A stretch of 42,339 nucleotides of DNA from Armatimonadota bacterium (GTDB taxonomy: Bacteria > Armatimonadota > UBA5829 > DTJY01), in assembly GCA_025358205.1 (NCBI GenBank), contig JANYKG010000002.1, positions 1 to 42,339 of the forward strand. The letters are read 5' to 3'. Below are positions 3,773-21,816 of the stretch, piece after piece. Positions within the stretch are counted from its first letter, which is position 1. Each line of letters starts with the position of its first letter. The translations under genes and the position numbers were made by a program. The notes under the pieces were generated by a model that worked only from the letters and a program-made list of their open reading frames with translations, had not been told where the DNA came from and made no database searches.

Positions 3773-3822
3773 TTGTTGTTCTGCGGTGGTTGCCGGCGAG
3801 TACATTTGTGGGAGGCAGTTTC

Positions 3823-5781
3823 ATGCGGCGGATAGAGTATAAGGATTATCTGGACAAGGTTTACGGGTGCTGGATCGGCAAGGGGGTTGCTGGGACCATC
3901 GGCGCGCCGTACGAGGGTGCGAAGGAACTGATGGACCTGGAGTATGACCCGTCCATCATTGAGAACATGCTGCCGAATGACGACCTCGATCTGCAGGTGC
4001 TGTGGCTCTCCGTGCTGGAGGAAAAGGGCGTTCGCTTCACGTCAGACGACCTCGCCGACGCATTCCTGAACCGATGCAAATACGGGCCGGGCGAGTATGC
4101 CTACTTCAAGAAAAACTACACACGCGGCATTCACCCGCCGGTGAGCGGCTCATTCAATAACAGGTACTACTGTGAAGGCATGGGTTGCCCGATTCGCTCC
4201 GAGATATGGGGGTGCATCGCGCCTGGGAACCCCGCCCTCGCCGCTGAACTCGCTGCGAAGGATGGCGTGCTTGACCACAAGTGGGAGTCGGTCTACGCCG
4301 AGCAGTTCCTGTCAGCCCTTGAGGCCGCTGCCTTTTTCGAGAGCGATCTGGACAAGCTGATTGATATCGGTCTGGCGCAGATTCCAGTGGGATCAAAGGC
4401 CTCGCTGCTCATCAGAGACGTGTGGGGCTGGTGCAAGGCATCGTCCGACTGGCGGTACGTGCGGAGTCAGATTCTGCGCAAGTACGGCCACCCCGACTGC
4501 ACGAACATGCCGCAGAATATCGGCATCACGCTTCTTGGGCTTTACTACGGCGGGATGGATATCATCGAGACATCCATGGTCGCGCTGAACTGCGGGTTCG
4601 ACACGGACTGTACGTGCAGCACAGCAGGCGCGATCATCGGGCTGATTCAGGGCGCGGACTACCTGGAGCAGAAGTACGGCTTCGGCGACCCCGGATTCAA
4701 ACTGGGGGTTGACGCGCCGAGGCGGTCGGACAGGAACCTACACCTCGCGGAGGATACCTGCGCGATGGGCTTGCACTTTGCCGAACATCTGAACAAGGAA
4801 GTCGAGATCGTCAATGCCCCGCCCGCACCGAAGATCGCACTTCAGCCGATCCCGTCCGTGAGTATATCGGTGGAGTATGACGGCATTCCGGCGATAGGCA
4901 TTGGGGAGACGTCCGGCGTGAAGATAGTTTTCGAGAACACAACTGATTCCGATATCACGGGCAAGGCATCGCTAAGCATACCCAAGGGATGGGTTTGCGA
5001 CCGCGAGACAAGCATTACTATCCCGGCGCGTGGAAAATCGCACTGGAACGTGGCGATCAGCGTGCCGGTTGATATCGGCGTGCTGAACGAGGCGAACCAC
5101 CTCGAAGCGACTTTCTCCGTGGATGGAATCGAGCCGATCACGTATCGGTTTGGGCTGACCGGCGCGTCTGTGTGGACGGTCTTCGGCCCGTTCTGGCAGA
5201 ACACGGTTGACATGCCGCCGCTGGAAATCAAGGAGAGCTTCTACTCGCACATACCGGGCGACGGCAAGGACAATTATGCCGACAACGTGCGCCAATATCA
5301 CTTAAATACAACCGTTGACCCGAAACGGGAGTATATGACTATGGAAGAAGTCACCGGCAAGTCGGCGACCGGTGATGCTGCCAAGGAAGGTGCGCTCGTC
5401 AACTGCTACGAAGACTTTATCTCGGTGAACGACGTGATCGGGTGGCAGGGGCCGTGCGCGGTGTACATGGTCAGGCGCATGGTTTCGCCCGAGGATAGGG
5501 CCGTGTGCGTCCAGGTCGGCCACACGGATGCGTATCAGCTTTGGATCAACGGCAAGCTCATTAGCGAGAGGGACAACGTGGACTGGTGGACGCTGGAGAA
5601 TGCGCACATACACGGATTCAGGTTGAACAAGGGCGTAAATGAGATCGTGGTGAAACTGATTCGACGCGGCGCGAAAGCCGACTTCAGCATTACGTTCACA
5701 AAGTCCGGCCCGTGTGCTGAGCAGTACTGGGACTTCGCCTCTGAGAATCCGCTTATTCGAGTGGCTGAGCAAGCAGGGTAG
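3823..5781 (+). CDS. ADP-ribosylglycohydrolase-fold protein with Ig-like and C-terminal beta domains
   Basis: The start ATG 3823 has GGGAGG seven bases ahead; a start 33 bp upstream has no such site. The protein is 652 residues. Residues 1-320 show the ADP-ribosylglycohydrolase fold, with the acidic metal-ligand motif NDDLD at 52-56 and the late motif GFDTDCTC at about 258-265 (D260, D262). Family members bind two divalent metals and hydrolyse N- or O-glycosidic ADP-ribose or related nucleoside bonds. Residues about 345-455 look like an Ig-like beta sandwich (SISVEYDG...IPARGKSHWNV). The C-terminal 150 residues (DAYQLWINGKLI...NKGVNEIVVKLIRRG) resemble the sugar-binding-like beta domains seen on carbohydrate enzymes. 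No signal peptide is evident. A glycan- or nucleoside-directed role with the neighbouring transporter is plausible but not shown. Confidence 0.85.
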   Translation: MRRIEYKDYLDKVYGCWIGKGVAGTIGAPYEGAKELMDLEYDPSIIENMLPNDDLDLQVLWLSVLEEKGVRFTSDDLADAFLNRCKYGPGEYAYFKKNYTRGIHPPVSGSFNNRYYCEGMGCPIRSEIWGCIAPGNPALAAELAAKDGVLDHKWESVYAEQFLSALEAAAFFESDLDKLIDIGLAQIPVGSKASLLIRDVWGWCKASSDWRYVRSQILRKYGHPDCTNMPQNIGITLLGLYYGGMDIIETSMVALNCGFDTDCTCSTAGAIIGLIQGADYLEQKYGFGDPGFKLGVDAPRRSDRNLHLAEDTCAMGLHFAEHLNKEVEIVNAPPAPKIALQPIPSVSISVEYDGIPAIGIGETSGVKIVFENTTDSDITGKASLSIPKGWVCDRETSITIPARGKSHWNVAISVPVDIGVLNEANHLEATFSVDGIEPITYRFGLTGASVWTVFGPFWQNTVDMPPLEIKESFYSHIPGDGKDNYADNVRQYHLNTTVDPKREYMTMEEVTGKSATGDAAKEGALVNCYEDFISVNDVIGWQGPCAVYMVRRMVSPEDRAVCVQVGHTDAYQLWINGKLISERDNVDWWTLENAHIHGFRLNKGVNEIVVKLIRRGAKADFSITFTKSGPCAEQYWDFASENPLIRVAEQAG

Positions 5782-5810
5782 GCGTTGCAGGCTGATATTC
5801 GGAAGTGACA

Positions 5811-8800
5811 ATGCGACAAACAAACCGAGCCATTGAGGGGACACTGCTCCTCTTCGCCTCAATCGTTTTACTGATCGGGTTCGCCTTGCTTTTCCTGGCG
5901 AAACTGCCGAGCCTCAACATCTCCCAAACCGTGAACATCAACACAGCGTCGGGCGACCGCATCGCGTCATCTCTCATGATAGACAGGTCGCTGGGAAAGC
6001 GGATTACCGACTTCCGTGCCAGCCACGGTCTATTCCAAAGCACAGCCTCGCTCAACGAAGTTGCGCTTCTCTCGCCCGATCAGGCCAAGTCACTGGCGGA
6101 GATTCAGAAGACGCACGATCTGGCGGGTATGTCACCGGGCGAGCTTGCATCACGTGGAGGGTTGACCAACGCGGTCTCGGAGCGGTTGGTGGAGTGGCTC
6201 GCGCTTGACAGGAAGGTTTCGGAGGAGCGGTTGGCGGCGATTTCCATCGTTTCCAGCGATATGGTCACGCGGCTCGATAACCGTCTCATAGTTCGCAATT
6301 CCGGTAAGGTTGTATTCAACTACTGGCTGTATGCCGGGCTGCTCATCTTGGCGTTCTTCGTCCTGCATGCGGCGTTGAGGCGCAGAGGTGCGTTCGCCGA
6401 TCCGTACATTCTGCCGTGCGCGCTGCTGCTGTCCGGGCTGGGCGCGCTGATCCTGTTCAGCATTAAGGACCCTCTGCGCGACACGGATGTCTACACCCGC
6501 CAGATTCAGGGCATACTCATCGGCATCGTTGTGGCAGCGTTTCCTCTATCGGCGAAGTTCCGGTCGTTCCGTCCATGGCGGTACACTTACATATTCGCAC
6601 TGCTGGCGGTTTTTCTGACGCTCATGCTAGCCGTGTTTGGCAGTGGGCCGGGCGGTGCAAAGCTCAAGCTGTTCGGATTCCAGCCCGTTGAAGTCGTGAA
6701 GCTCGCGCTGGTCTTCTTCGTCGCGAGCTACCTGGCGGACAGGTGGTCGGCGCTCATGGACAAGACCGGCCCGAGGCGCACATTCACCATGCCGCTGTTC
6801 CGCGACATCGGTCCACTGCTGGTGATGTACCTGCTATCGTTGTTCACGTTTGTGCTGGTCAAGGACCTTGGACCCATGCTCATCCTGTTCGGCATGTTCG
6901 TCTGCATGCTCTACGCGGCGACCGGCAAGCTTTCGTTCGTTGCGGTGGGTGTTGCGGCGGTGGGCGTGACGGGGTGGCTGGCATATGTCATGCACCTTGG
7001 GGTGTTCGACGTGCGCGTGGACATGTGGCTTGGGCCGTGGAAGAACGCTCACGCAAACGGCATGCAGCTCGGCCAGGCGCTGTGGGGTTTGGGCACTGGC
7101 GGGGTCTTCGGCAGCGGCCTTGGGTTGGGGCAACCGGCGTTCATGCCGCGTTCGGGGTCAGATCTCATTTTCGCGTCAATCGGCGAGGAACTTGGCCTGG
7201 TCGGCTCGCTGTTTACGCTGATAGTGTCTTCCATCATCATCGCCCGTGGATACCGCGCCGCGCTTCATGCTCGAACCGATTTCGAGCGGTTCCTCGCGGT
7301 GGGGATTTCTACTCTGCTTGGCATACAGATCGTTATCATCGTGTTCGGCGTTCTCGGCATTCTCCCGCTCACCGGCGTAACTTTCCCGTTCGCCAGCTTC
7401 GGCAAGTCGTCGCTGGTGGCGTCCTTCCTCATGGTCGGGCTGCTGCTGAACATCTCCGCGAACGGAACTCGTGATTCGCTCGACGTGCGCAGGGAATTCC
7501 GTGGCGCGGTCTCCGGGCTGCTCACCGGGCTGTTGGTGTTGATCCTCGGTGTCGCGGGAATCGGCAGACTGATCTGGGTTCAGGGCGTGAAGTCCGACCA
7601 AATCGCCGGAATGACGGTTACCACGCCGGATGCCGATGGATTCGTCCGTCCGCACATCAACCCAAGGCTGATGTCCATCGCCGCGAGCATACCCAGGGGC
7701 TCTATCTACGACAGAAACGGTAAACCGCTTGCGACCTCGCGGGCATCAGAACTGCAGCAACTGGGCGCTGTGGATACTGCGGCTGATCGCCCGATGGACC
7801 GCTATTATCCGTATGGTCAGTCTATGTCGCACATCGTCGGCTACGTTGATCCGCGCTGCGGCGGGCCGATTGGATACGAAAAGTGGCGGAACAACGACTT
7901 GCGCGGGTTTGAGGACTATGCGCAGTTGCTGCCCCTCTATCGGCGCAGGTTCACGCCCTACAAGACCAACCTTGAAGGCAAGGACGTTCGGCTTACAGTG
8001 GACGCTGATCTGCAGGCGACTGTGGAGAAGGCGCTGGTCAAGTTCGCGGGCGCTGTGCGGGACAAGCGGAACGGCAGGCGGAAGGATCGCGCGGCTGCGG
8101 TGGTGATTGATGTTTACACCGGCGAGATTTTGGCGGCGGCGTCCATACCGGGATTTGACCCCAACGAGCTAACAACAGGCAAGTGGATGGCGTATAATAA
8201 CGACAGAACCGGCGAGTCGGTGCTGTTCGATAGGTCAATGAACGGCGTCTATCCGCCCGGCTCAACGTTTAAGCTGGTTACCGCGTCGGCTGCGCTGGAA
8301 AACGGTGTGGACTTATTGGTAAACTGCGCGCATCAGGCGTTCAACGTGCGGTGGAGCTACGACAGCAAGAATTATTCCAGAAGGCGAATAACCGATCTTG
8401 AGGAGATGCGGGCGCACGGGCTGACGGGCCTTGCGAAGGCGATTCGCGTGTCATGCAATGTCTTCTTTGCACGCATGGGGATTGCGCTTGGGCCGAACAA
8501 GCTGTACGATATGACCAGGAAGTATCGGTTGAGCCGTATTCCGCCGCCGAAGAAGCTTGCGGAGGACCTGCCTGATAACGCTTATGGGCAGGGGACGATT
8601 CAGGTTTCGCCGCTGGAGATGGCGCGGGTAGTGGCAGCAATTGCGAACGGCGGAGTGATGATGAAGCCTCAGTTGGTCAAGGACGTAAGTCTGCACGAGA
8701 AGGCTTTGGAAACGGTGATGCCGGTTGAGATGGGCCGTCCGCTGAGTGCTACATCTGCCAATGCGCTGCGGAAGATGATGGCGGATGTAGTATCCAAAGG

Positions 8801-9020
8801 CACCGGCAAAGGCGTGTTCAACGGCGTGGGCGTTTCCGTTGCGGGCAAGACCGGCAGCGCGGAGAACGATCAGGGCGACAAAATGCCGCACTCCTGGTTT
8901 GTGGGTTTTGCGCCGGTGGACGATCCGCGAATTGCGTTTGCGGTAGTCGTGGAAAATGGCGGTTACGGTCGGGCAGCAGCCGCGCCGATCTGCCGCGAGA
9001 TAGTCAAAGCAGCGTTCTGA
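5811..9020 (+). CDS. FtsW/RodA (SEDS) glycosyltransferase fused to class B PBP transpeptidase, with HhH insert
   Basis: One 1069-residue chain joins the two peptidoglycan polymerising activities. ATG 5811 has GGAAG five bases ahead (a GTG at 5805 is possible). After TM1 (about 12-32), residues 40-98 match the ComEA-type helix-hairpin-helix (VNINTAS...ITDFRASHGLF), with a weaker second copy to about 150. Next comes an actinobacterial-type SEDS core: ADPYILP, FQPVEVVKLA and SDLIFASIGEELG, whose Asp (D451) corresponds to the catalytic Asp of RodA. A PBP linker helix at about 575-595 leads to the transpeptidase, with SxxK STFK at S818, SxN SCN at 881-883 and KTGS at K1013. It should synthesise and crosslink glycan strands outside the membrane. 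The gene is immediately followed by the FHA/PP2C/kinase genes, suggesting control by Ser/Thr phosphorylation. Confidence 0.95.
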   Translation: MRQTNRAIEGTLLLFASIVLLIGFALLFLAKLPSLNISQTVNINTASGDRIASSLMIDRSLGKRITDFRASHGLFQSTASLNEVALLSPDQAKSLAEIQKTHDLAGMSPGELASRGGLTNAVSERLVEWLALDRKVSEERLAAISIVSSDMVTRLDNRLIVRNSGKVVFNYWLYAGLLILAFFVLHAALRRRGAFADPYILPCALLLSGLGALILFSIKDPLRDTDVYTRQIQGILIGIVVAAFPLSAKFRSFRPWRYTYIFALLAVFLTLMLAVFGSGPGGAKLKLFGFQPVEVVKLALVFFVASYLADRWSALMDKTGPRRTFTMPLFRDIGPLLVMYLLSLFTFVLVKDLGPMLILFGMFVCMLYAATGKLSFVAVGVAAVGVTGWLAYVMHLGVFDVRVDMWLGPWKNAHANGMQLGQALWGLGTGGVFGSGLGLGQPAFMPRSGSDLIFASIGEELGLVGSLFTLIVSSIIIARGYRAALHARTDFERFLAVGISTLLGIQIVIIVFGVLGILPLTGVTFPFASFGKSSLVASFLMVGLLLNISANGTRDSLDVRREFRGAVSGLLTGLLVLILGVAGIGRLIWVQGVKSDQIAGMTVTTPDADGFVRPHINPRLMSIAASIPRGSIYDRNGKPLATSRASELQQLGAVDTAADRPMDRYYPYGQSMSHIVGYVDPRCGGPIGYEKWRNNDLRGFEDYAQLLPLYRRRFTPYKTNLEGKDVRLTVDADLQATVEKALVKFAGAVRDKRNGRRKDRAAAVVIDVYTGEILAAASIPGFDPNELTTGKWMAYNNDRTGESVLFDRSMNGVYPPGSTFKLVTASAALENGVDLLVNCAHQAFNVRWSYDSKNYSRRRITDLEEMRAHGLTGLAKAIRVSCNVFFARMGIALGPNKLYDMTRKYRLSRIPPPKKLAEDLPDNAYGQGTIQVSPLEMARVVAAIANGGVMMKPQLVKDVSLHEKALETVMPVEMGRPLSATSANALRKMMADVVSKGTGKGVFNGVGVSVAGKTGSAENDQGDKMPHSWFVGFAPVDDPRIAFAVVVENGGYGRAAAAPICREIVKAAF

Positions 9021-9104
9021 CACATGACACGTGATGAGCGAACTGCTTTTCGAGACGTTCTGAGCCGTCACGGCCGTTCACGTATCACTTATCACTTATC
9101 ATCC
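9018..9104. repeat. Period-7 inverted repeat, TGAYAMR family
   Basis: The left arm begins in the stop codon of the SEDS–PBP gene and reads TGACACA, TGACACG, TGAT. The right arm (9075-9104), read on the other strand, reads TGATAAG, TGATAAG, TGATACG, TGA. The arms pair imperfectly, with a second small stem inside (GAGCCGTCACGGC). The element fills the gap before the FHA gene and stops just short of that gene's ribosome-binding site. Confidence 0.7.
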
Positions 9105-9116
9105 GGAGGGTCCCAC

Positions 9117-10259
9117 ATGGATATGTTCGAGAAGATCAACAAGGCGTTTGCGGGATGGTACGAGTCGTGGTTTGGCGATGCAGTGAGCGACATTCGCCCG
9201 AAGGATGTCCTCCGCAAGGTCGTCAGCGCCATGGAGGACAACCGCAAGGAAGGGCTGGACAACCGCGTCTATGTGCCGAACAAATACGTGCTGGAGATCG
9301 CTTTCGAGAGTGATGACGAGCGCGAGTACCTGCTTGCGTTTCTGGATAAACAGGAGTTTGAGTCCGCACTTCGCAAGTACATGTCGCAGAACAAGTATTA
9401 CGTTCGTGGGCTGCTTGACTTCACGATTCAGGAAATGGAGCAGGCCGAGGGTGAGTCTCAGCCTCAGAAGTTGACGGTCAAGGCCAAGTGGGACGTTCGC
9501 CTAATGGAGAAGGAGAGCGATCCGCCCGTGCTGGACGCGCCTCCGCAGGCCGTGCCGGGCACCCCGTATGAGCCGTATGAGGAAGAGGAGTACACGGTTG
9601 CCGGAACCGATGTCTACGATGCCAGCACCGTTGCGCCGCCTTGCTTGAACATAAAGAAGGCGGATGGTTCAACGAGCCAGTTCCTTCTGACGAAGCCGAC
9701 TGTCACGATTGGCCGGTCGCAGCGTTTGAACAACGACATCGTGATCGAGAACGACGGCATGGTTTCCAAGCGTCACGCGCAGATATCGCTTGGGGCTGAC
9801 GGCTTCACGGTCAGCGACCTCGGCAGTACGAACGGCCTGTGGGTAAACGGCGCGAAGGTGTCCTCGGCGCTCCTCCGAAGCGGCGATGTCATCCGCCTGG
9901 GCGGGACGGAGATGACGTTTGAGGAGTCCGGCGTGCGCGCGCCTGTCGTTACCGGCTTGCAGAGTCGTCCTCGCTTGATGATAGACCGGGGTGGGCGGAC
10001 TGAGGAGTTTCGGCTGGCGTCTGATGTGGTGATCGGTCGGTCGCTTACCAGTGACGTGCGGTTTGAGGATCGTTCGGTTGCCCAACGCCACGCGCGGGTA
10101 TTCTCTCAGGGCGGCGGAAATTATTACGTCGAAGACCTGGGCAGCGAATCGGGCACGGTGGTCAACGGCGTGGTGATTCTGCACGGCTCACCGGTCAAGC
10201 TGTCCGCTGGAGACCGTATCAAGCTTGGGGATGTGGAGGTGCGCTATGAAGTGGATTAG
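9117..10259 (+). CDS. fhaA: FhaA-like protein: DUF3662 domain plus two FHA domains
   Basis: ATG 9117 follows GGAGGG at good spacing; the upstream extension of the frame lies in the repeat and is not expected to be translated. The 380-residue protein starts with a DUF3662 domain (about 1-115, MFEKINKAFAGWYESWFGD), then an acidic linker. FHA1 is at about 175-265 (IGRS at 198-201, SKRHA, DLGSTNGLWVNG). FHA2 is at about 290-380 (IGRS at 306-309, AQRHA, DLGSESGTVVNG). FHA domains bind phosphothreonine peptides. In mycobacteria FhaA sits beside rodA, pbpA, pstP and pknB and interacts with cell-wall proteins phosphorylated by the kinase. Two FHA domains instead of one is a difference from the mycobacterial form. 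Likely a cytoplasmic adaptor between the kinase and the SEDS–PBP synthase. Confidence 0.92.
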   Translation: MDMFEKINKAFAGWYESWFGDAVSDIRPKDVLRKVVSAMEDNRKEGLDNRVYVPNKYVLEIAFESDDEREYLLAFLDKQEFESALRKYMSQNKYYVRGLLDFTIQEMEQAEGESQPQKLTVKAKWDVRLMEKESDPPVLDAPPQAVPGTPYEPYEEEEYTVAGTDVYDASTVAPPCLNIKKADGSTSQFLLTKPTVTIGRSQRLNNDIVIENDGMVSKRHAQISLGADGFTVSDLGSTNGLWVNGAKVSSALLRSGDVIRLGGTEMTFEESGVRAPVVTGLQSRPRLMIDRGGRTEEFRLASDVVIGRSLTSDVRFEDRSVAQRHARVFSQGGGNYYVEDLGSESGTVVNGVVILHGSPVKLSAGDRIKLGDVEVRYEVD

Positions 10260-10368: not shown

Positions 10369-11709
10369 ATGAATGAACCTGGAATCAGAACAGCCTTCAA
10401 AACGGATATCGGGCGCAGGCAGGAGAACGAAGACTCCTACCTCGCGCTGAACGCCGCCGAACTCGGCGGGCGCGCGGATGCCCTGCTCATTGTCGCGGAC
10501 GGCATGGGCGGTCGTGCGTCTGGTCAGGTGGCCAGCCGCCTGGCCGTCAGCTCCGTGCGTGACGCGTTTCTGTCTGGGGCGGTGGCGGATGACCTTTCGT
10601 CGAGTCTGAGAGAAGGTCTGCGCACTGCTAACTCAAAAGTCTTTGGCGAGGCGTCCACTAAAGCTGAACTTCAGGGGATGGGTACAACCTGCTCCGCCGC
10701 AGCGATCAAGGGCGGCAAGGCTTTCTTCGCGCACCTGGGTGACAGCCGCATCTACCTCTTGCGGGATGGCGCGATTCTTCGTCTGACCGAGGACCATTCT
10801 TTTGTGGCCGAGAAGGTGCGCACGGGCGAGCTTACCGAGGAGCAGGCCAGACAGAGTAGGTTCCGCAATGTCATCACACGAGCGGTCGGCCTTGAGGCAG
10901 ACTGTCAGCCGGCGGTCGGCAGCGTGGACCTGGCGCAGGGCGACGTGCTGCTGCTCTGTTCGGATGGGCTGACCGGGCCGGTACCCGACAACCAGATTGC
11001 CGATATTCTGTGCGGTTCGTCCGACGTGGATGAGGCTTGTGATCGGCTGGTCAAGACCGCACTGAAAAACGGCGGCAGTGATAACGTCACAGTGGTGTTG
11101 GCTGTGTTCGGCACGCGCACGTCAGTCAAACGCCGGGCAGTCAAGAAGGAACCGAAGCGCATCTCGTGGGTGATTCCGCTACTTATAGGTCTGCTGTTGG
11201 GGCTTGGGATAGGGGCGCTGCCGGGGTATCTCATTTTCCTGAAGCCGACGCCAAAGCAGGTCGTCGCCGAGAAGCCGACAGTCAGTGCGACAGTTTACGG
11301 CGACCCCGTGCCGCTGACCTACGAGCCGCTGCAGCAGGGATTCCTCGCGTTAGATGAGGCAGAGCGATTGAATGTCGTTGATACCCAGGCGCGGCGAATG
11401 GTGGTTGACGGCAACGGCAAGACGCTCGCCACGTTCCCAGCGCGCGGTACGTTCAAGCCCGTGAAGCATACGCCCACCCAGATGGCGGCTGCTGATACGG
11501 ATGGGAATCTGTACGTATCCGACCCGGTCGGCAAAAAGATACTCAAGTTTGGCAAAGACGGCTTGTTCCTGTGCGTTATAGGCGAAGGGAAGCTGATGTT
11601 ACCGGAAGCGCTGGCTGTTGACAAGAACGGCAGCGTGTTCGTAATTGACGGCGGTAGGCTCAAGGTCATCCGACCCAAGATCGGTGAGCAGAAGGAGCCG
11701 TCACCATGA
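10369..11709 (+). CDS. PP2C-family Ser/Thr phosphatase with TM helix and external beta-propeller-like repeats
   Basis: The 446-residue protein begins six bases after the small TM gene. Residues 1-245 form a PP2C phosphatase with all metal motifs: RRQENED (16-22), DGMGG (44-48), HLGDSRIYLLRDG, CSDGLTG and GGSDNV. A transmembrane helix is at about 267-288. The roughly 150-residue tail shows NHL-type repeats such as AAADTDGNLYVSDPVGKKILKF and ALAVDKNGSVFVIDG, expected outside the membrane. The domain order matches mycobacterial PstP (cytoplasmic phosphatase, TM, external domain), which dephosphorylates the kinases and FHA proteins of the locus. The stop overlaps the kinase start by 4 bp (ATGA), indicating tight coupling. 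The external repeats could sense cell-wall material; this is inference. Confidence 0.94.
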   Translation: MNEPGIRTAFKTDIGRRQENEDSYLALNAAELGGRADALLIVADGMGGRASGQVASRLAVSSVRDAFLSGAVADDLSSSLREGLRTANSKVFGEASTKAELQGMGTTCSAAAIKGGKAFFAHLGDSRIYLLRDGAILRLTEDHSFVAEKVRTGELTEEQARQSRFRNVITRAVGLEADCQPAVGSVDLAQGDVLLLCSDGLTGPVPDNQIADILCGSSDVDEACDRLVKTALKNGGSDNVTVVLAVFGTRTSVKRRAVKKEPKRISWVIPLLIGLLLGLGIGALPGYLIFLKPTPKQVVAEKPTVSATVYGDPVPLTYEPLQQGFLALDEAERLNVVDTQARRMVVDGNGKTLATFPARGTFKPVKHTPTQMAAADTDGNLYVSDPVGKKILKFGKDGLFLCVIGEGKLMLPEALAVDKNGSVFVIDGGRLKVIRPKIGEQKEPSP

Positions 11710-13313
11710 GCCTGGGCATGATCGGAAAATACGAAAAGCTGGACGTTCTAGGCCACGGAGTATCCGGCATTGTCTACCTGGCATGGGACACCCTGCTCGG
11801 CAAGCACGTCGCGCTGAAGGAGATCAGCCTTCAGTCCGGCGATGAGGCGCGGTTCCTGGAAGAGGCGAGGGTGCTTGACCGACTGCGCCATCCGAACATC
11901 GTGCAGGTGAACGGTGTGGACAAGATTGACGGGCATCTGATCATTGACATGGAGTACGTGAACGGCACGAACCTTCATGAATATCTGCGGACTCACGGCA
12001 AGCTGCCTGTGCGCGAGGCGTTGAGCGTGGCGTTTCAGGTCTGTGATGCGCTCGATTTTGCTCACAAGAACAACATAGTACACAGGGATATCAAACCCGC
12101 GAACATATTGATCTCCAAGGAGGGAGCGGCTAAAATCGCCGACTTCGGGCTGGCTGAGATACTCGGCAGCGGCTCATACGCCGGGGGCGCGGGCACATAC
12201 GCGTACATGGCGCCGGAGGACTTTGCGGAGGAGGAACGCTCGGACAGCCGATCGGATACTTGGGCGGTTGGGGTCACCCTTTACGAGATGCTTACAGGCA
12301 GACGTCCGTTCCAGGCGGATAAGGCAAAAGACCCGTTTTCGTGGAGGCGGACTGTATCGGAAGATAGCCCATCGCCGCTTGGGGAGACTGATCCATCATT
12401 GCCTATCGAACTAGAGCAGGTTATTTCGCGAGCTTTGGCGAAGAATAAGGCAGAGCGTTATCAGTCTGCCGGTTTCATGCGTGACGATATTGCGAAGATT
12501 CTTACATCGGTCGGTGGTCAGGTTCCGTTGAGTTGCGCATCTACTGCCGGACCGGAAGCGTCTGCCCTTCAGTCTGCTGAGGATTCCGAGATTGAGTCGG
12601 ACGTAGAAGTAATCCCGGACGAACTGGATTTTGGCAAGGTTCGCAAAGGCGAGTTGGGCAGCCGCAAGCTGCGTATGCGCATTCCGGGCCGTGGGCGGAT
12701 CGAGGGCCGGGTGGCGTCGCTTCCCGGGTGGCTGGCGGTCACCCCTCAGTCTTTCAACCGAAGGAATCAGACGCTCGTCGCAACAGGAGACACGAAGACA
12801 ATCTGGCAACCGGGTACCTATCAGGATCAACTGCTCCTGGAAGTGGACGGCGAAAAGATTAGTGTCCCGGTTTCCATGCAGGTCGTTCCGCCGCGCAGGT
12901 CGTTTTCTGAAGTTGTGTGGTGGTATGTGCCGCTGCTCGCGATATGCGCGATGCCTGTACTGGCGCGCTTGGTTGTATCAAAAGACCATCAGCCGGATGC
13001 GGCGGGTCTGGTTACATCCGGCCTGCTGTACGTCATGCTGTTGATAATGAGCATTGTTGCTGATCTGGGGATACCGGAGAAAGTCGTCCCCAGTGCCGCA
13101 GCGACGGTGGCCATATTCGCAGTGGTGGGCCAGTTCACTCAGCGGTCGGCTATTGCGCAGATGAAATCGGCTGATCTTGTGGCAATGTCGGTGGCCGGCA
13201 CGTTGCTGAGCCTGTTGATAGCCATGCAGTTGCTTACGGCATCGAAATGGAGAGTTTGGGGCGTGATTCTAGTTTTGTGTTCGGTCATCGCCACTATGGC
13301 GTTTGGCAGATAG
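11706..13313 (+). CDS. Membrane Ser/Thr protein kinase with Ig-like domain and about five TM helices
   Basis: The 535-residue protein overlaps the phosphatase gene by ATGA. Residues 9-265 are a Hanks-type kinase: glycine loop LGHGVSG, VALK with K38, HRDIKPAN with D128 and DFG at D146. APED replaces the usual APE. Residues about 302-395 form an all-beta domain (ELDFGKVRKGE...LPGWLAVTPQSF...TYQDQLLLEVDG) like those that accompany HYDIN/ASH-type repeats. The last 135 residues are about five hydrophobic helices. It differs from PknB, which has one TM and external PASTA repeats: here the beta domain precedes the membrane part and should be cytoplasmic. With the PP2C and FHA neighbours it likely phosphorylates cell-wall proteins. 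Its stop codon TAG is also the edge of an intergenic repeat. Confidence 0.93.
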   Translation: MSLGMIGKYEKLDVLGHGVSGIVYLAWDTLLGKHVALKEISLQSGDEARFLEEARVLDRLRHPNIVQVNGVDKIDGHLIIDMEYVNGTNLHEYLRTHGKLPVREALSVAFQVCDALDFAHKNNIVHRDIKPANILISKEGAAKIADFGLAEILGSGSYAGGAGTYAYMAPEDFAEEERSDSRSDTWAVGVTLYEMLTGRRPFQADKAKDPFSWRRTVSEDSPSPLGETDPSLPIELEQVISRALAKNKAERYQSAGFMRDDIAKILTSVGGQVPLSCASTAGPEASALQSAEDSEIESDVEVIPDELDFGKVRKGELGSRKLRMRIPGRGRIEGRVASLPGWLAVTPQSFNRRNQTLVATGDTKTIWQPGTYQDQLLLEVDGEKISVPVSMQVVPPRRSFSEVVWWYVPLLAICAMPVLARLVVSKDHQPDAAGLVTSGLLYVMLLIMSIVADLGIPEKVVPSAAATVAIFAVVGQFTQRSAIAQMKSADLVAMSVAGTLLSLLIAMQLLTASKWRVWGVILVLCSVIATMAFGR

Positions 13314-14940: not shown

Positions 14941-16542
14941 TTGTCCGAAAAGAGCGAAAAACCAGCGGATTCCCAGGACAGCTTGGATTCGCTATCGTTT
15001 ACATTGCCTGCTCAGGCCAGCGCCAGAGGAGTGATTGTCACTGATGCAGAGCACAGGGTCTGCTTTGTTGACCCCAGAGTTTGCGATCTGTTGGGAGTTG
15101 ATGCCGTGCAGATCATGGGGTTGACAGTTGCTGACTCGATGCCGGCGTTGCGTTTCAGGTTTGCCGATCCCAAGCAGTTTGATAGCCGTGCCGAGTGGAT
15201 GCTGAGCCATGCGGACGAGATAGCCGAGGATGTACTTGAACTGGCCGCTCCTGATGGCCGCGTTCTGCACTGCTACAGCGCTCCATTACTTGACGGTGAC
15301 GGCCATTCCACAGGACGTATTGACGTTTACAGCGACATCACGCGCAGACGGCATCTCGAGGAAATGAACGCGGGTCTTTACAGGCAAATTCGGTCTGCCT
15401 ATGAGGAGTTGAAGGCGACACAGGATCAGCTTCTGCAGTCCGAAAAACTTCGCGCTATTGGTGAAATTGCCGCCGGTGTCGCCCATGATTTCAACAACAC
15501 GCTGGGCATAATACTCGGCAACATCCAGCTTCTGCTTCGTACTGCCCAGGATGAGAAGACGCAGAACCGGCTTCGCGCCGTGGAGCAGGCCGCGCTAGAT
15601 GGAGCCGAGACCATCCGCCGCATCCAGGAGTTCACTCGTGTTCAGCCGGATGAAACCACAGCGCCGGTAGATCTGAGTGCGTTAGCAGAAACCGTGGTTG
15701 AGGTGATGAAGCCGAGTTGGCAGAATAGCGCACAGGCAAATGGTTGCAGGATTGACGTTGATCTGGAACTAGCCGCGGATGTCTACGCTGCGGGAATCGC
15801 CCCTGAGATCAGAGAAGTTTTGGCGAACGTGATACTGAACTCGGTTCAGGCCATGCCGACCGGCGGGAAGCTGAGCATTTCAACGGGCCATGATGAACCG
15901 ACTGTATGGATCAGGATAGCGGATACCGGCGCAGGCATGAGCGATGCCGTGAGGAACAGGGTGTTTGACCCGTTCTTCACCACGAAGGGTGTGGAAGGCT
16001 CCGGGCTGGGCATGAGCGTGGCATACGGCATCGTCAAGCGTCACAGAGGCAGGATCACCATAGAGAGTGCGGAGGGCGAGGGGACTGCCGTTACCATCTG
16101 GCTGCCGGTATCTCAGTCGGCGCCCGGCGAACAGCTTCCGTCCGCTCCGAAGTTAGAACGGGTTGGGTCCGTGAGCATACTGGTGGTTGACGATGAGGAG
16201 ATGTTCGGCAAGGTGCTGGCGGAGATGCTGACGGAACATGGTCATACTGTGCGCGCGGCGAACTGCGGATCTGAGGCGCTGGACATGTTTACGAAAGAGC
16301 ATTACGACCTGGTGTTCACCGATCTCGGCATGCCTGACATGTCGGGTTGGGAAGTGGCCGCAGCAATCAAGGAGTGCAGTCACGATACGCCGGTTGTGCT
16401 GCTGACGGGCTGGGGCGCGAAAGTGGACGAGGATCGCCTGTCATCGTCGAAGGTTGACCTTGTACTCTCCAAACCAGTGAAGATGGATGAACTACCGGCG
16501 ATAGTGGCTGCGGCGCTGGCCGGACGCAGAAGAAGGAAGTAA
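14941..16542 (+). CDS. Soluble hybrid histidine kinase: PAS, HisKA, HATPase, receiver
   Basis: The 533-residue protein begins at TTG 14941 with GGGGG upstream. Residues about 26-150 form a PAS sensor (RGVIVTDAEHRVCFVDPRVCDLLG). The phospho-acceptor H182 lies in AAGVAHDFNNTLGIILGN. ATP-binding boxes follow: NVILNSVQAMP, ADTGAGMSD and GSGLGMSVAYGI. The C-terminal receiver (about 410-530) has VVDDEE and phospho-acceptor D461 in FTDLGMPDMSG. No membrane helix is seen, so the signal is probably cytoplasmic. Eleven bases separate it from the NtrC-type regulator, its likely output. An attached receiver suggests a phosphorelay or feedback control. Homology to flagellar kinases such as FlrB is contextual only. 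Confidence 0.93.
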   Translation: MSEKSEKPADSQDSLDSLSFTLPAQASARGVIVTDAEHRVCFVDPRVCDLLGVDAVQIMGLTVADSMPALRFRFADPKQFDSRAEWMLSHADEIAEDVLELAAPDGRVLHCYSAPLLDGDGHSTGRIDVYSDITRRRHLEEMNAGLYRQIRSAYEELKATQDQLLQSEKLRAIGEIAAGVAHDFNNTLGIILGNIQLLLRTAQDEKTQNRLRAVEQAALDGAETIRRIQEFTRVQPDETTAPVDLSALAETVVEVMKPSWQNSAQANGCRIDVDLELAADVYAAGIAPEIREVLANVILNSVQAMPTGGKLSISTGHDEPTVWIRIADTGAGMSDAVRNRVFDPFFTTKGVEGSGLGMSVAYGIVKRHRGRITIESAEGEGTAVTIWLPVSQSAPGEQLPSAPKLERVGSVSILVVDDEEMFGKVLAEMLTEHGHTVRAANCGSEALDMFTKEHYDLVFTDLGMPDMSGWEVAAAIKECSHDTPVVLLTGWGAKVDEDRLSSSKVDLVLSKPVKMDELPAIVAAALAGRRRRK

Positions 16543-16552
16543 GACGGATACG

Positions 16553-17950
16553 ATGGCAAAACGCATCTTAATCATAGACGACGAAGAAGGCATTCGGGCG
16601 GTGCTCGCTGATCTGTTCACTGATCTTGGGTATGAGGTCGAGCAGGCATCGGACGGCCGAGTCGGACTGAAGACGGCGGTCAGCGGCGACTACGACCTGG
16701 TGCTGTGCGACCTCAGCCTGCCGCACATGGACGGGCTGGCGGTGCTTCGCGATCTCAAGGAACACAAGCCGGGAATCGCCGTCGTCATGATCACCGGCTA
16801 TGCGTCAATGCAGAGCGCGATTGAGGCGATGAAGCTCGGCGCGTATGACTACGTGACAAAGCCTTTCGACCTCAACGAAGTCCAGATGATCGCTGAGCGC
16901 GCGCTTGAACACGACCGCATCATGGACGAGAACAAGTACCTGAAGAACCAGCTCAAAATTCATCACAATTTCGAGAACATCATCGGCTCGAACCCTCAGA
17001 TACAGGAGGCGTACAGGCTGGCCGCGCAGGTGGCGGAGAGCAACGCGTCCGTGCTCATACTGGGCGAGACCGGCACCGGCAAGGAGTACCTGGCGCGGGC
17101 GATCCACTACCAGAGTCCGAGGGCCGGTCAGCCGTTTGTGAAAGTTAGTTGTGTTGCGCTGCCGGAGTCGCTCTTGGAGAGTGAGCTTTTCGGCCACGAG
17201 AAGGGCGCGTTCACCAACGCAGTGGCCCGCCGCATCGGGCGGTTTGAGTCTGCGGACGGCGGCACTCTGTTTCTTGACGAGATAGGCGATATCACTCAGG
17301 CCACGCAGTTGAAGCTTCTGCGCGTGCTGCAGGAGAAGCAGTTCGAGCGGGTAGGGGGCAGCGATACCATCACGGTTGACGTTCGGATTGTGGCGGCGAC
17401 GAACAAGGACATGAAGAAGGCGATTGCGGAAGGTGAGTTTCGTGATGACCTGTATTATCGCCTGAATGTCATCACTATCAACCTGCCCGCGCTCAGGGAT
17501 CGCAAAGAGGACATACCGGAGCTGGCCGTACACTTCATTCGGAAGTACAGCAAGGAGAACCACAAGGAGATAGATGGAATCGTCCCCGAAGCGCTGGCTC
17601 TGCTACAGGACTACTCCTGGCCGGGTAACATCCGGGAACTCGAAAACTGCATACACCGAGCGGTTGTCTTCTGTAACGGTCGGCGATTGTTGCCCCAGCA
17701 TATCCAGCTTGGTGAGGAAACCGCCCCGGAGATAACGGAAAAAGGTGTGGCTACCGGTCCTAGATCACTCGCTGATGTCGAGCGCGATCACATCGAAATC
17801 ACGCTCAAAGAGTGCGGCTGGAACCAGACAAAAGCCGCGCAAACCCTCGGAATTGACCGCAAAACCCTTCGCAATAAAATCAGGGAATACGGGCTTGGCA
17901 CGGAAATTGCTGTGCTTGACCCTGATGATACAGCGAAACCCCTCCGATAA
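16553..17950 (+). CDS. NtrC-family sigma-54 activator (response regulator), GAFTNA variant
   Basis: The 465-residue protein has the complete NtrC architecture. The receiver at 1-120 has acidic residues D9/D10 and phospho-acceptor D53. The AAA+ domain at about 140-375 has Walker A GETGTGKE (K177), Walker [12 protein letters not shown] and R-finger region [12 protein letters not shown] Fis-type helix-turn-helix lies at about 408-447 ([20 protein letters not shown]). The sigma-54 contact loop at 218-223 reads GAFTNA instead of the usual GAFTGA. It should use ATP to open sigma-54 promoters, four of which are in this window. The last 20 codons contain the sigma-54 promoter for the next genes. Its position beside two kinases, rpoN and flagellar genes makes it the likely flagellar master activator (FlrC/FleQ-like role, inferred). 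Confidence 0.95.
17896..17911 (+). promoter_or_regulatory. Sigma-54 promoter P1 (inside the 3' end of the activator gene)
   Basis: TGGCACG-GAAA-TTGCT has GG at 17897-17898 and GC at 17909-17910, with exactly ten bases between, matching the -24/-12 consensus. The predicted transcription start is near 17922. It would serve the second kinase, the lone receiver and rpoN, giving sigma-54 autoregulation. It lies within the codons for the last part of the activator. Confidence 0.85.
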
Positions 17951-17978
17951 TCTTAGTGGCTACCGGAATGAGGGCCTT

Positions 17979-18776
17979 TTGAGTTGCTCAGGAACCAAGC
18001 GCGGTCGCAAGCCGAGTAAGGCGAAAGAGAAACCGAAGGCCGAGATGGAAACCGTAGCTGCCGAACGCCTGGAAGCGGCGGGAAGGCTAGCCGGGTGGAT
18101 CGCCCACCAGATCAACAATCCTCTGGGTGCGATCTCCGGCAATGCCCAACTGCTCGCAAGGCGGCTCCAACGAGACATCGGCGATCCCGACACGCTCCGA
18201 GTTTATCTCGGGTATCTGGAAGCGATTCAGAGTCACACGGAACGATGCGCACGCATCACCGGCGAAGCTCTGAACTTCACCAGACCCGGTGACCCGGAAC
18301 TGCGCAAAGTGGATTTGTCCGAGGCCGTGATGGAGGCCGCTGACCTGGTTCGGTATGCTTACCCGAACAGTCGTATCATGCTGGCGCTGGACAATGAGCG
18401 CGGCATACCCGAGGTGAAGGCAGACAGAGAATGGCTCACCAGGGTGGCGTTTGAGATACTCTCGAATGCAGCGGCTGTTTCAGAGGATAGGCCGATAAGC
18501 GTACACATCTGCGCAGGCCTTTCCGATGTAAGGGTTCGGATTTCCGATTCCGGTCCCGGGATCGCGGAAGACGTGCTTCCCAGAGTCTTCGATCCTTTCT
18601 TCTCGACGCGCGATGAGGCCAGAGGAATGGGCCTGACGGTCAGTCTGGAGATGACGCGCAAGATGGGCGGAAGCCTGAAAGTTGAGAGAAAGAAGGAAGG
18701 CGGATGCACCTTCACAGCGGCGTTCCCGTTATGGGGGCAAAGGGCTAGTGACTGCACAGATTCTGGTAGTGGATGA
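17979..18776 (+). CDS. Small soluble histidine kinase (HisKA plus HATPase)
   Basis: The frame is open from 17745, but the part before about 17922 lies upstream of the predicted transcript start. TTG 17979 is my choice, with GAGGG close ahead at only four bases, so the start is uncertain. The resulting protein is about 265 residues. After a basic N-terminus comes the phospho-acceptor motif GWIAHQINNPLGAISGN (H43 from this start). HATPase boxes follow: EILSNAAAVS, ISDSGPGIAED and GMGLTVSLEMTR. There is no sensor domain and no membrane helix, so the input is unclear. It overlaps the next receiver gene by 29 bp. It probably phosphorylates that receiver or the adjacent NtrC-type activator. Confidence 0.88.
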   Translation: MSCSGTKRGRKPSKAKEKPKAEMETVAAERLEAAGRLAGWIAHQINNPLGAISGNAQLLARRLQRDIGDPDTLRVYLGYLEAIQSHTERCARITGEALNFTRPGDPELRKVDLSEAVMEAADLVRYAYPNSRIMLALDNERGIPEVKADREWLTRVAFEILSNAAAVSEDRPISVHICAGLSDVRVRISDSGPGIAEDVLPRVFDPFFSTRDEARGMGLTVSLEMTRKMGGSLKVERKKEGGCTFTAAFPLWGQRASDCTDSGSG

Positions 18777-19137
18777 CGAAAAGGGACTGACCGACGTTTT
18801 GGCCGATCTCCTCGAATCCGAGGGATACGAGGTGGATGTATGCCATGACGCGGTTTCCGCCCGTGAGAAACTTGCCGCAAAGCGATTCGATGCGGCAATG
18901 CTCGATGTCTTCCTCTCCAACTCTCCGGCAGGTCTTGATCTGGCGAACCTCATTTTCGCCGAGCATCCCACCACCGGGGTGATCATCATGACCGGATACG
19001 CCGACCGAGCCGATGTAAACCTCGCGTGCAGCAACGGTGCGTTCACCTGCATTGACAAGCCTTTCAACCTCGACGATGTTATAAAAGCGCTGGACCTGGC
19101 GCTCACTACCAACGCAGATTCGGACGGGGAGAACTAA
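18748..19137 (+). CDS. Single-domain response regulator (receiver only)
   Basis: GTG 18748 follows AAAGGG closely and gives a 129-residue protein that starts directly at the receiver fold (MTAQILVVDDEKG). The phospho-acceptor is D53 (AAMLDVFLS), with acidic pocket D9/D10, a conserved Thr in IIMTGYA, and Lys in CIDKPFN. There is no output domain, so it should act as a phosphate shuttle, sink or protein-binding switch. It overlaps the upstream kinase by 29 bp and is separated from rpoN by one base, which argues for one transcript. Its role in the sigma-54 circuit is inferred from context. Confidence 0.92.
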   Translation: MTAQILVVDDEKGLTDVLADLLESEGYEVDVCHDAVSAREKLAAKRFDAAMLDVFLSNSPAGLDLANLIFAEHPTTGVIIMTGYADRADVNLACSNGAFTCIDKPFNLDDVIKALDLALTTNADSDGEN

Positions 19138-19138
19138 G

Positions 19139-20560
19139 ATGGCTATGCACGTAGGCGCTGGGCAAAGACAGCATCAAAACGCCGGGATGGTCCCGGATCA
19201 CTTTCTTGGCAAGAACATCCTCAAAATGGGCATGCAAGACCTGCAGCAATTTGTGCAGGAGCAGCTTGCCGAAAACCCCGCGCTGGTTATGTCCGATGAC
19301 GCGGCGATGTGCCCGGTCTGCGGCGGCGCGTTGATGGGCGGATTCTGTCCCACTTGCGGCTCCGAAACCCTGACCGTTGAAGCGGATGTCACCGACAACT
19401 CGGATGACTGGGACGAAGAAATGTACACCGCTCCCGCCGATGATGAAATCTGCGAGGCTATCAACTTCGTGGCGGCCCCGTCCTCACTGACCGAATACCT
19501 GATGGAACAGATCAGCACAGTGGCGGACGGCGAGACGAGGCGTATTGCCGAGTTCCTGATCGCCAGCCTGGATGAAGACGGCTACATTCGCGAGCCGCTG
19601 ATCGAGATTGCCTCTGAGTTTCAGATGAGCGTCCCTCAGATCGAGGAAGTTCTGAGAGTGGTTCAGTCGCTGGAGCCTGCCGGGGTGGGCGCGCGCGACC
19701 TTCGCGAATGCCTTTCACTGCAGATCGCGCAGATTGACGACGACTCGGACGATAAGCAGCTTGCCGAGATAATCCTGCGTGAGCACTGGGAGGCCGTCGA
19801 GCGCATGAGACTGGACAACCTCGCCGGAGCGCTGGGCGTAGAGGCAGAGAACATCACGGATGCCCTCGCGTTCATCAAGGAGAACCTGACGCCCCATCCC
19901 GCTGATTCGTTCCGCGATGCCTGGGAGAAGCTGGCGCCGAAGCGTGAGGCCAGGTGCGTGCCTGACGTCCTCGTGCGCAGCACGGACACGGGACTGAATG
20001 CCGAGATACTTGATCCTGTCACCGGGCAGGCTGCACTGGATGAGGCGTACAGCAGCCTCTACGCGGAGATGCAGAAGCGGCTCGGTGGTTTCACCGAAGA
20101 GGAGAGAACGCACATCCGCGAGTGCGTACAAGGCGCGCGAGTGCTCATCGAATCGCTTGAGTTTAGAAAGTCCACTCTACGGCGCGTGGTTGATGCCATC
20201 GTGGCGGAGCAGACCGGCTTCATCGTGAATGGTTCCTCATATCTGCGGCCCCTGACCCGGAAGCACCTGGCCGACAAGCTGGGCGTGCATGAATCCACCG
20301 TGTGCCGCGCCACTACCGACAAGAACATGCAGCTTCCGACAGGCGAAGTCATACCCTTCGACATTTTCTTCGATTCCGCGCTGCCCGTTAAGGAATTGGT
20401 CAGAAAACTGGCATCCGAAAGACCGAACGGCAAGGCTATGAGCGACAACGAGATCGCCAAGCGTTTGAAAGATATGGGCTTTGAGATCGCCAGACGCACG
20501 GTTGCCAAGTACAGAGCGCAGCTTAGAGTGCTTTCGCAGGACTATCGTCTGGCAGCTTAG
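19139..20560 (+). CDS. rpoN: RNA polymerase sigma-54 factor with N-terminal zinc-ribbon insert
   Basis: The 473-residue sigma-54 is recognised by region I (ILKMGMQDLQQFVQEQLAENPAL, 27-49), the core-binding middle, the helix-turn-helix (LADKLGVHESTVCRAT) and the RpoN box ARRTVAKYR at 451-459, which reads the -24 element. Between region I and the core lies an extra zinc ribbon, CPVCGG...CPTCGS (C58, C61, C70, C73), followed by an acidic stretch. I know of no such module in standard RpoN. The start ATG 19139 is one base after the receiver gene, with GGGGAG eight bases ahead. It needs an AAA+ activator to open DNA, supplied by the NtrC-type protein at 16553-17950. The flagellar promoters P2-P4 match its recognition sequence. 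Confidence 0.96.
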   Translation: MAMHVGAGQRQHQNAGMVPDHFLGKNILKMGMQDLQQFVQEQLAENPALVMSDDAAMCPVCGGALMGGFCPTCGSETLTVEADVTDNSDDWDEEMYTAPADDEICEAINFVAAPSSLTEYLMEQISTVADGETRRIAEFLIASLDEDGYIREPLIEIASEFQMSVPQIEEVLRVVQSLEPAGVGARDLRECLSLQIAQIDDDSDDKQLAEIILREHWEAVERMRLDNLAGALGVEAENITDALAFIKENLTPHPADSFRDAWEKLAPKREARCVPDVLVRSTDTGLNAEILDPVTGQAALDEAYSSLYAEMQKRLGGFTEEERTHIRECVQGARVLIESLEFRKSTLRRVVDAIVAEQTGFIVNGSSYLRPLTRKHLADKLGVHESTVCRATTDKNMQLPTGEVIPFDIFFDSALPVKELVRKLASERPNGKAMSDNEIAKRLKDMGFEIARRTVAKYRAQLRVLSQDYRLAA

Positions 20561-20601
20561 TGCGCCCGCCGAGAGTCACCTCTGCTTTCACCACACCCAC
20601 C

Positions 20602-20617
20602 TGGCACGGGAATTGCT
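20602..20617 (+). promoter_or_regulatory. Sigma-54 promoter P2, upstream of flgB
   Basis: TGGCACG-GGAA-TTGCT has GG at 20603-20604 and GC at 20615-20616, spaced by ten bases. It sits between rpoN and flgB, with a predicted start near 20628, about 25 bases before the flgB codon. It should drive flgB through at least fliK. Confidence 0.93.
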
Positions 20618-20652
20618 GTATAGCCTGTGCTTGCCATTGGAGGTTGATGAAA

Positions 20653-21033
20653 ATGGTAGATTATCTTAATGACTTAACGTCGGTCGTGCTGGCCAAGTCG
20701 CTTGATGCGGCGGGTGCGCGGCACAAAGTAATAGCGGATAACATCGCCAATGTAGAGACGCCCGGTTTCACCCGGTCAAAGGTCAGCTTCGACGAGCAGT
20801 TGAAGTCGGCTCTTGCGTCCGGCGATGACGATAGTACGAAGGACAGAGTCTCTGAAATGGAGCCGGAAGTGGAGCTGGACGAAGCCTCTCCCCGTGGTCC
20901 TAATGGCAACAATGTGAACATTGACATCGAGATGGCAGAATTGAATAAGAACAACCTGCAGTACGATAGCCTGGTCCAACTGCTCAATCTGAGGGGCAGC
21001 ATGATCAAGATCGCGATCAGGGAAGGTAGATAG
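20653..21033 (+). CDS. flgB: Flagellar proximal rod protein FlgB
   Basis: ATG 20653 has GGAGG nine bases ahead. A second ATG six bases upstream is too close to that site, and earlier codons lie before the promoter start. The 126-residue protein has the FlgB rod signature: an N-terminal helix (LAKSLDAAGARHKVIADNIANVETPGFTRSKVSFDEQL) and a C-terminal amphipathic helix (NVNIDIEMAELNKNNLQYDSLVQLLNLRGSMIK). Both helices pack in the axial rod core after export by the flagellar type III apparatus. It opens the flagellar run, two bases before flgC, in the usual flgB-flgC-fliE order. Confidence 0.97.
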   Translation: MVDYLNDLTSVVLAKSLDAAGARHKVIADNIANVETPGFTRSKVSFDEQLKSALASGDDDSTKDRVSEMEPEVELDEASPRGPNGNNVNIDIEMAELNKNNLQYDSLVQLLNLRGSMIKIAIREGR

Positions 21034-21035
21034 AG

Positions 21036-21446
21036 ATGGGTAATTTTTCCTCCATTGACATAAGCGCGTCGGGACTTTATGCCCAGCGTATGCGCATGGA
21101 CGTGATTGCGAATAACATCGCAAACGCCACCACCACACGCACGGATAAGGGTGGGCCGTACCGCAAGCAGGAAGTGATTTTCCAGGCTCATTCCGGCAAA
21201 CTCGACGGCGCGAACGGCGGCGTGGAAGTAGCCGGGGTGGTGGAAAGCCCGGAGCCGTCGAAGATGGTCTACGATCCATCCAGCCCGGATGCCGGACCAG
21301 ACGGCATGGTGGCAATGCCGAATGTGAATGTGGTCGAGGAGATGGTGGATATGATCACCGCGACCAGGGCTTACGAGGCGAATGTGCAGGCAATAACCGC
21401 TTCGCGCAGCATGAGCACAAAAGCTCTGGAGCTTGGCAGGGTTTAA
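21036..21446 (+). CDS. flgC: Flagellar proximal rod protein FlgC
   Basis: The 136-residue protein has the rod/hook N-terminal motif (SSIDISASGLYAQRMRMDVIANNIANATTTRT) followed by GPYRKQEVIF. The C-terminal helix NVVEEMVDMITATRAYEANVQAITASRSM is diagnostic of FlgC. It is exported and polymerises into the proximal rod with FlgB, FlgF and FliE. It lies two bases after flgB and 14 before fliE, clearly in one operon. Confidence 0.98.
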   Translation: MGNFSSIDISASGLYAQRMRMDVIANNIANATTTRTDKGGPYRKQEVIFQAHSGKLDGANGGVEVAGVVESPEPSKMVYDPSSPDAGPDGMVAMPNVNVVEEMVDMITATRAYEANVQAITASRSMSTKALELGRV

Positions 21447-21460
21447 GGAGATTATTCGCT

Positions 21461-21754
21461 ATGAAAATTGACGGCATAGGCGGCCAACTAAACGCACCGC
21501 AGATAGGCGGAACCAAGGCTGAGGGTGTAGGCGGAAGCTCATTCGGCGACACCATGAAGAAGGCTATCACGGATGTGAACGACCTGCAGACCTCGGCTGA
21601 CCAGATGGCGACGAAACTGGCGTCCGGTGATGCAGTTGAGATCCATCAGGCAATGATAGCCATGCAGAAGGCCAGCACTGCGCTGCAGTTCACATTGGCG
21701 ATTCGGAACAAGATCATTGATGCGTACCACGAGGTCATGCGCACGTCGGTCTAG
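21461..21754 (+). CDS. fliE: Flagellar MS-ring/rod junction protein FliE
   Basis: The 97-residue protein has the FliE C-terminal signature (SGDAVEIHQAMIAMQKASTALQFTLAIRNKIIDAYHEVMRTSV), preceded by a glycine-rich N-terminus (GIGGQLNAPQIGGTKAEGVGGSSFGDTMKKAI). FliE links the MS-ring to the rod and is the first rod substrate. GGAG upstream of ATG 21461 is well spaced. A 62-bp gap separates it from fliF. Confidence 0.97.
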   Translation: MKIDGIGGQLNAPQIGGTKAEGVGGSSFGDTMKKAITDVNDLQTSADQMATKLASGDAVEIHQAMIAMQKASTALQFTLAIRNKIIDAYHEVMRTSV

Positions 21755-21816
21755 GTGGTACTTGCACCGGCGAACTAGCAGATAGCAGACACTGAGAGTA
21801 AGAGAGGACAGGATAG

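Follow-up and report, generated by a model that had tools for sequence, protein, structure and literature searches.

The window analysed here, a stretch of 42,339 nucleotides from an Armatimonadota bacterium, carries on its forward strand an open reading frame (positions 5805-9020) that encodes 1071 amino acids and stays open across both a SEDS polymerase and a class B penicillin-binding protein (PBP). Pairs of this kind, which are drug targets, build the walls of bacteria. The start codon is a GTG at 5805, the initial annotation having begun the gene at the ATG at 5811. From N- to C-terminus, and all on the forward strand, the protein comprises an extra N-terminal helix, x1 (residues 2-37, about 13-33 transmembrane according to AlphaFold helices and charge pattern; 5808-5915); a first ComEA-type helix-hairpin-helix domain, (HhH)2 (residues 41-103, from Pfam HHH_3 and AlphaFold helices; 5925-6113); a second, degenerate copy of it (residues 107-160, from profile-profile comparison with copy 1 and AlphaFold helices; 6123-6284); a second extra helix, x2 (residues 166-194, from AlphaFold and the alignment; 6300-6386), with a conserved R164 just before it; a SEDS polymerase core of ten transmembrane helices (residues 199-556; 6399-7472); the PBP transmembrane helix (residues 563-595, from AlphaFold; 7491-7589); a short PBP pedestal region with weak PBP_dimer and PBP_dimer_2 matches (residues 596-760; 7590-8084); and a class B PBP transpeptidase domain with the motifs S820TFK, S883CN and K1015TG (residues 764-1067; 8094-9005).

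Pfam recognizes FTSW_RODA_SPOVE at residues 208-553 (E 1e-59, 202 bits against a cut-off of 26.4), Transpeptidase at 764-1067 (E 4e-56) and HHH_3 at 41-98 (positions 5925-6098; 31.9 bits in the whole protein and 37.7 for the isolated loop, against a cut-off of 27), while the scan finds no Transgly (GT51 transglycosylase) match in the protein. The triple HhH-SEDS-PBP fusion of the initial annotation is thus upheld, with all three domains found in one open frame, as is its ComEA-type HhH, which it had placed at residues 40-98. S820, K823, S883, N885 and K1015-G1017 are invariant across 53 aligned relatives, as is D453, the conserved SEDS aspartate at the start of TM8 (the SEDS helices span 202-553), and the PBP half is, as had been claimed, a complete one. 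An assembly artefact or frameshift is ruled out, since the fusion recurs uninterrupted in dozens of independent genomes.

The HHH_3 match is not due to chance, as the same model matches 22 of the 24 Armatimonadota loops tested. A weaker second copy had also been suspected: a profile-profile comparison of copy 1 with copy 2 gives 98.3% and a score of 64.2, whereas 40 column-shuffled controls do not exceed 11.9, and together with the predicted fold this indicates that the second copy is real. Compared with solved structures, the profile of the module matches EEPD1, ComEA and the type II secretion protein K, and the T2SSK model matches 11 of the 24 loops at E below 1. A fold search with the isolated module gives weak local matches, among others to ComEA (8dss; probability 0.87, rmsd 1.3 over 41 columns) and XcpX (6utu; rmsd 1.4 over 44 columns, 34% identity), and because none of its hits has an E-value below 1, sequence profiles are the main basis for calling the module an HhH. 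Identity among the loops is low (mean column identity 29%). The first hairpin glycine is lost in 15 of 24 loops and the second in 20 of 22, being kept in two; in the window LMID stands where a G-h-G hairpin would be expected. Net charge ranges from -4 to +8 across the loops and is 0 in the window. The loss of the hairpin glycines and the near-neutral charge make canonical DNA binding by the fusion HhH unlikely, much as the initial annotation had expected; L122, another HhH protein encoded in this genome, keeps intact LPGIG and VKGIG hairpins.

An AlphaFold model of the fusion, built from 53 sequences, has a mean pLDDT of 92.9 and a pTM of 0.85, and in it a four-helix HhH unit appears twice, with helices at 50-57, 61-74, 80-85 and 91-103 in the first unit and at 111-118, 122-132, 140-144 and 151-156 in the second. 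The repeated pattern is unchanged when the isolated module is modelled alone (confidence 93.1). The initial annotation had inserted the HhH between TM1 and TM2 of the SEDS enzyme. An insertion between two transmembrane helices is confirmed, but not the identity of these helices: TM1 of the SEDS core lies at 202-220, so that x1 and x2 are both N-terminal additions and the HhH sits between two extra helices, outside the canonical TM1/TM2 pair. The x1-x2 hairpin is also found in HhH-less fusions and in unfused relatives, there with a short loop. As family averages, the N-terminus and five of the six interior loops that precede the last SEDS helix show a clear surplus of basic over acidic residues, whereas the outer loops show hardly any; the average HhH loop of 84 residues carries 10.5 basic and 9.2 acidic residues. 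Helix alternation and the positive-inside charge pattern thus both predict that the HhH loop falls outside the membrane. On the two points on which the proposal had been staked beforehand, profile comparison thus supports the HhH and predicted topology its exoplasmic position.

The HhH module is conserved beyond the window. Of 291 Armatimonadota species, 38 or more have a match to a profile of the extension, in long open reading frames of which a few are shorter than the full fusion and perhaps cut at contig ends; families f1, f5, f6, f11, f17, f25 and f27 are represented among the matches listed, and HhH fusions occur by name in metagenome-assembled genomes (MAGs) of Chthonomonadales, Capsulimonadaceae and Armatimonadaceae. 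Acidobacteriota (Bryobacterales and relatives) share the SEDS-PBP fusion. Their loop, which is conserved and reads GELLNLNxV ... PLPNVGALARLR (for example L068:6082-6447), is not recognized by Pfam; profile comparison with the Armatimonadota loop gives 88% for the whole loop and 79% for the HhH stretch alone (score 26.0, whereas none of 40 column shuffles exceeds 14.6), and by this measure it resembles an HhH in degenerate form. A second, divergent lineage of SEDS-PBP fusions (open reading frames of 1221-1427 amino acids in G018, G028, G043 and G055; L174-L177), one member of which comes from the window's own class, carries an HhH at the equivalent place: L174 has HHH_3 above the Pfam cut-off, L177 and L175 match it weakly and Pfam does not find it in L176, and the A3 profile matches all four loops, L176 being the weakest. 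One clade of fusions (L015-L017 with their kin) has no HhH, nor has L046, and the synthase can thus work without the module. Three further fusions (L019, L020 and L021; about 1070-1120 amino acids) have no loop resembling an HhH in the N-terminal portion examined.

All 53 fusions fall, in a tree of SEDS proteins, with unfused, FhaA-adjacent Armatimonadota SEDS proteins and with two sequences from Clostridia, a grouping with a support of 0.90. Separate from it stand a clade of FtsW (0.94) and one of RodA (0.99), whose labels derive from the dcw-type genes of the window genome and from our own reading rather than from an annotated reference. The SEDS half thus lies outside both the FtsW and the RodA groups of the same phylum and is part of a third clade. 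A single clade of fusions has low support (0.41), so that one fusion event is indistinguishable from several. The PBP half is closest by sequence to an Eggerthella protein (4mnr), Mycobacterium tuberculosis PbpA (3un7/3lo7) ranking second and third, and closest by fold to PbpA (3upp). Directly downstream, on the same strand, follow an FhaA-like protein with FhaA_N and two FHA domains by Pfam (9024-10259), a PstP-like PP2C-type phosphatase (10369-11709) and a Ser/Thr protein kinase (11706-13313) in which Pfam finds no PASTA domain. The order in the window is thus fusion-FhaA-PP2C-kinase; G003 shows fusion-FhaA-PP2C, the order in Acidobacteriota is PP2C, kinase, fusion, and FhaA adjoins the SEDS gene in some unfused relatives; in the stretch covered around most other Armatimonadota fusions, no FhaA, PP2C or kinase neighbours were found. 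In Actinobacteria, one locus holds pstP, rodA, pbpA, a kinase and fha genes (PMC6554272). The third SEDS clade, the PbpA-like PBP half and the FhaA/PP2C/kinase neighbours point to a protein that is related to the RodA-PbpA synthase of Actinobacteria, but fused; as the tree was built without actinobacterial RodA, the case for orthology is carried by the PBP half and synteny. Elsewhere in the window, an ADP-ribosylglycohydrolase domain protein of 663 amino acids (3790-5781) lies directly upstream of the fusion, and a histidine kinase, a sigma-54 activator, a sigma-54 factor and FliF are encoded on one strand at 14941-23400, perhaps a sigma-54-controlled flagellar cluster.

Most fusion genomes have three SEDS genes, and most of those sampled outside the window's family also keep FtsW and RodA (among named records, G065 has one SEDS and G074 two). 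MreB and MreC are present in the searched HhH-fusion Armatimonadota outside the window's family (G033, G039, G047, G052 and G060). Within this family (G000-G004), MreC was found in none of five genomes and a strong MreB match in none either, the best reaching about 60-65 bits against 424-502 for the top match in MreB-bearing relatives, and no RodA match was obtained; it is an elongasome-free family within a phylum whose members mostly keep the elongasome. Four of its five genomes have FtsW and the fusion, and G001 has FtsW as its single SEDS and no fusion. Whether separate synthase genes exist beside the fusion, a point raised with the initial annotation, has a divided answer: the window genome carries its own FtsW, one class A PBP and one other class B PBP, while rodA, mreB and mreC were not found in it. 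The fusion is therefore the only SEDS synthase beside FtsW in the window's family and, RodA, MreB and MreC being lost, presumably carries out non-septal, elongation-like wall growth there.

Taken together, we lean towards reading the protein as a kinase-linked counterpart of RodA-PbpA whose HhH is an exoplasmic protein-contact module and not a DNA binder. The SEDS half would polymerise lipid II and the fused PbpA-type half would cross-link the resulting strand, a single chain fixing the two at 1:1 stoichiometry, and the fusion would be the Armatimonadota/Acidobacteriota counterpart of the pair encoded at the fhaA-pstP-rodA-pbpA-pknAB locus. The tandem ComEA-type (HhH)2 would hang on the outer face between the two extra helices and, as a two-domain module tethered before the SEDS core, would be in a good position for bracing or steering the PBP half; through protein contact it could act as a brace that sets the position of this half or as a dock for an envelope partner. 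Extracytoplasmic precedents for HhH domains exist among its own profile matches, namely ComEA and the type II secretion protein K.

Alternatively, the module may be an inherited spacer between accessory helices, neutral or purely structural and with no specific binding. This would agree with its absence from one fusion clade and L046, its presence in one or two copies, the low loop identity and its degeneration in Acidobacteriota; we hold this to be rather unlikely, as the HhH is retained across several Armatimonadota families and two divergent fusion lineages and as its second copy and fold are kept, the latter with high model confidence. Exposed on the outer face beside both active sites, the HhH might instead contact the substrate or the product (lipid II, peptidoglycan or the glycan strand), acting between polymerase and transpeptidase as its guide or as a clamp for processivity, an idea that we regard as improbable because no sugar-binding site is singled out in the sequence and because, to our knowledge, no HhH of ComEA type binds glycan. 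Least probable is that the HhH binds DNA on the outside and so couples the making of the wall to DNA uptake or extracellular DNA: ComEA, which acts outside the membrane, is among the nearest relatives, but the lost hairpin glycines and neutral charge argue against it, as does the separate L122, which keeps both hairpins in the same genome. Protein contact would thus rank first among the roles of the HhH, followed by neutral spacer, glycan contact and DNA binding.

The protein-contact reading can be taken one step further. In the RodA-PBP2 pair both enzymes become active when the PBP half opens, a step that MreC is believed to promote, while bacteria lacking MreCD must use other means of activation, which were left open (PMC10257715). 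The HhH of MreC-less bacteria could be a built-in activator or regulator that governs in cis how the PBP half opens, in place of MreC (or FtsQLB), a suggestion that we put forward tentatively and with some doubt. Replacement of MreC as the origin of the HhH was considered and rejected, as HhH fusions also occur alongside MreB, MreC and a RodA. A synthase that unites both enzymes in one chain and has an additional exoplasmic module, in a family devoid of MreB, MreC and RodA, bears on how activation proceeds without MreC and, since a single loop is at stake, offers a direct test bed for tethered regulation of polymerisation and cross-linking. It also illustrates how a wall enzyme has retained HhH domains whose DNA-binding hairpins were lost.

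Natural SEDS-PBP fusions in a single open reading frame are already known, PMC10449877 citing the Rhodococcus RHA1 genome. That fusion, compared here by its description only, shares the joining of SEDS and PBP in one frame, and PMC10449877 mentions no HhH module for it. No paper joining helix-hairpin-helix, RodA and penicillin-binding protein was found in the open-licence literature searched; relative to that literature, the HhH module in such a fusion is thus new, the fusions as such being known. With ComEA-type HhH domains (HHH_3, PF12836; Geobacillus ComEA, 8dss) the module shares its domain family, above the Pfam cut-off, and a local fold match, but it differs in lacking the hairpin glycines, in being neutral and in being housed in a wall synthase. 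The type II secretion minor pseudopilin K (GspK/XcpX) likewise has an HhH-like part outside the cytoplasm, although it is a secretion-system protein with no tie to wall synthesis; a literature search found no paper joining GspK with helix-hairpin-helix. By comparison with the RodA-PBP2 elongasome synthase, with which it has a SEDS core and a class B PBP in common, the fusion has a SEDS half that groups apart from RodA, and the window's family lacks MreB and MreC. The closest counterpart is the actinobacterial RodA-PbpA pair (pstP/rodA/pbpA/pknAB/fhaA locus of M. tuberculosis), which resembles the fusion in its PBP half and its FhaA/PP2C/kinase neighbours; MreC is absent from the window genome and likewise from Actinobacteria (PMC10257715). 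Whereas rodA and pbpA are separate genes in Actinobacteria, here SEDS and PBP form one continuous open reading frame into which an exoplasmic HhH module is inserted.
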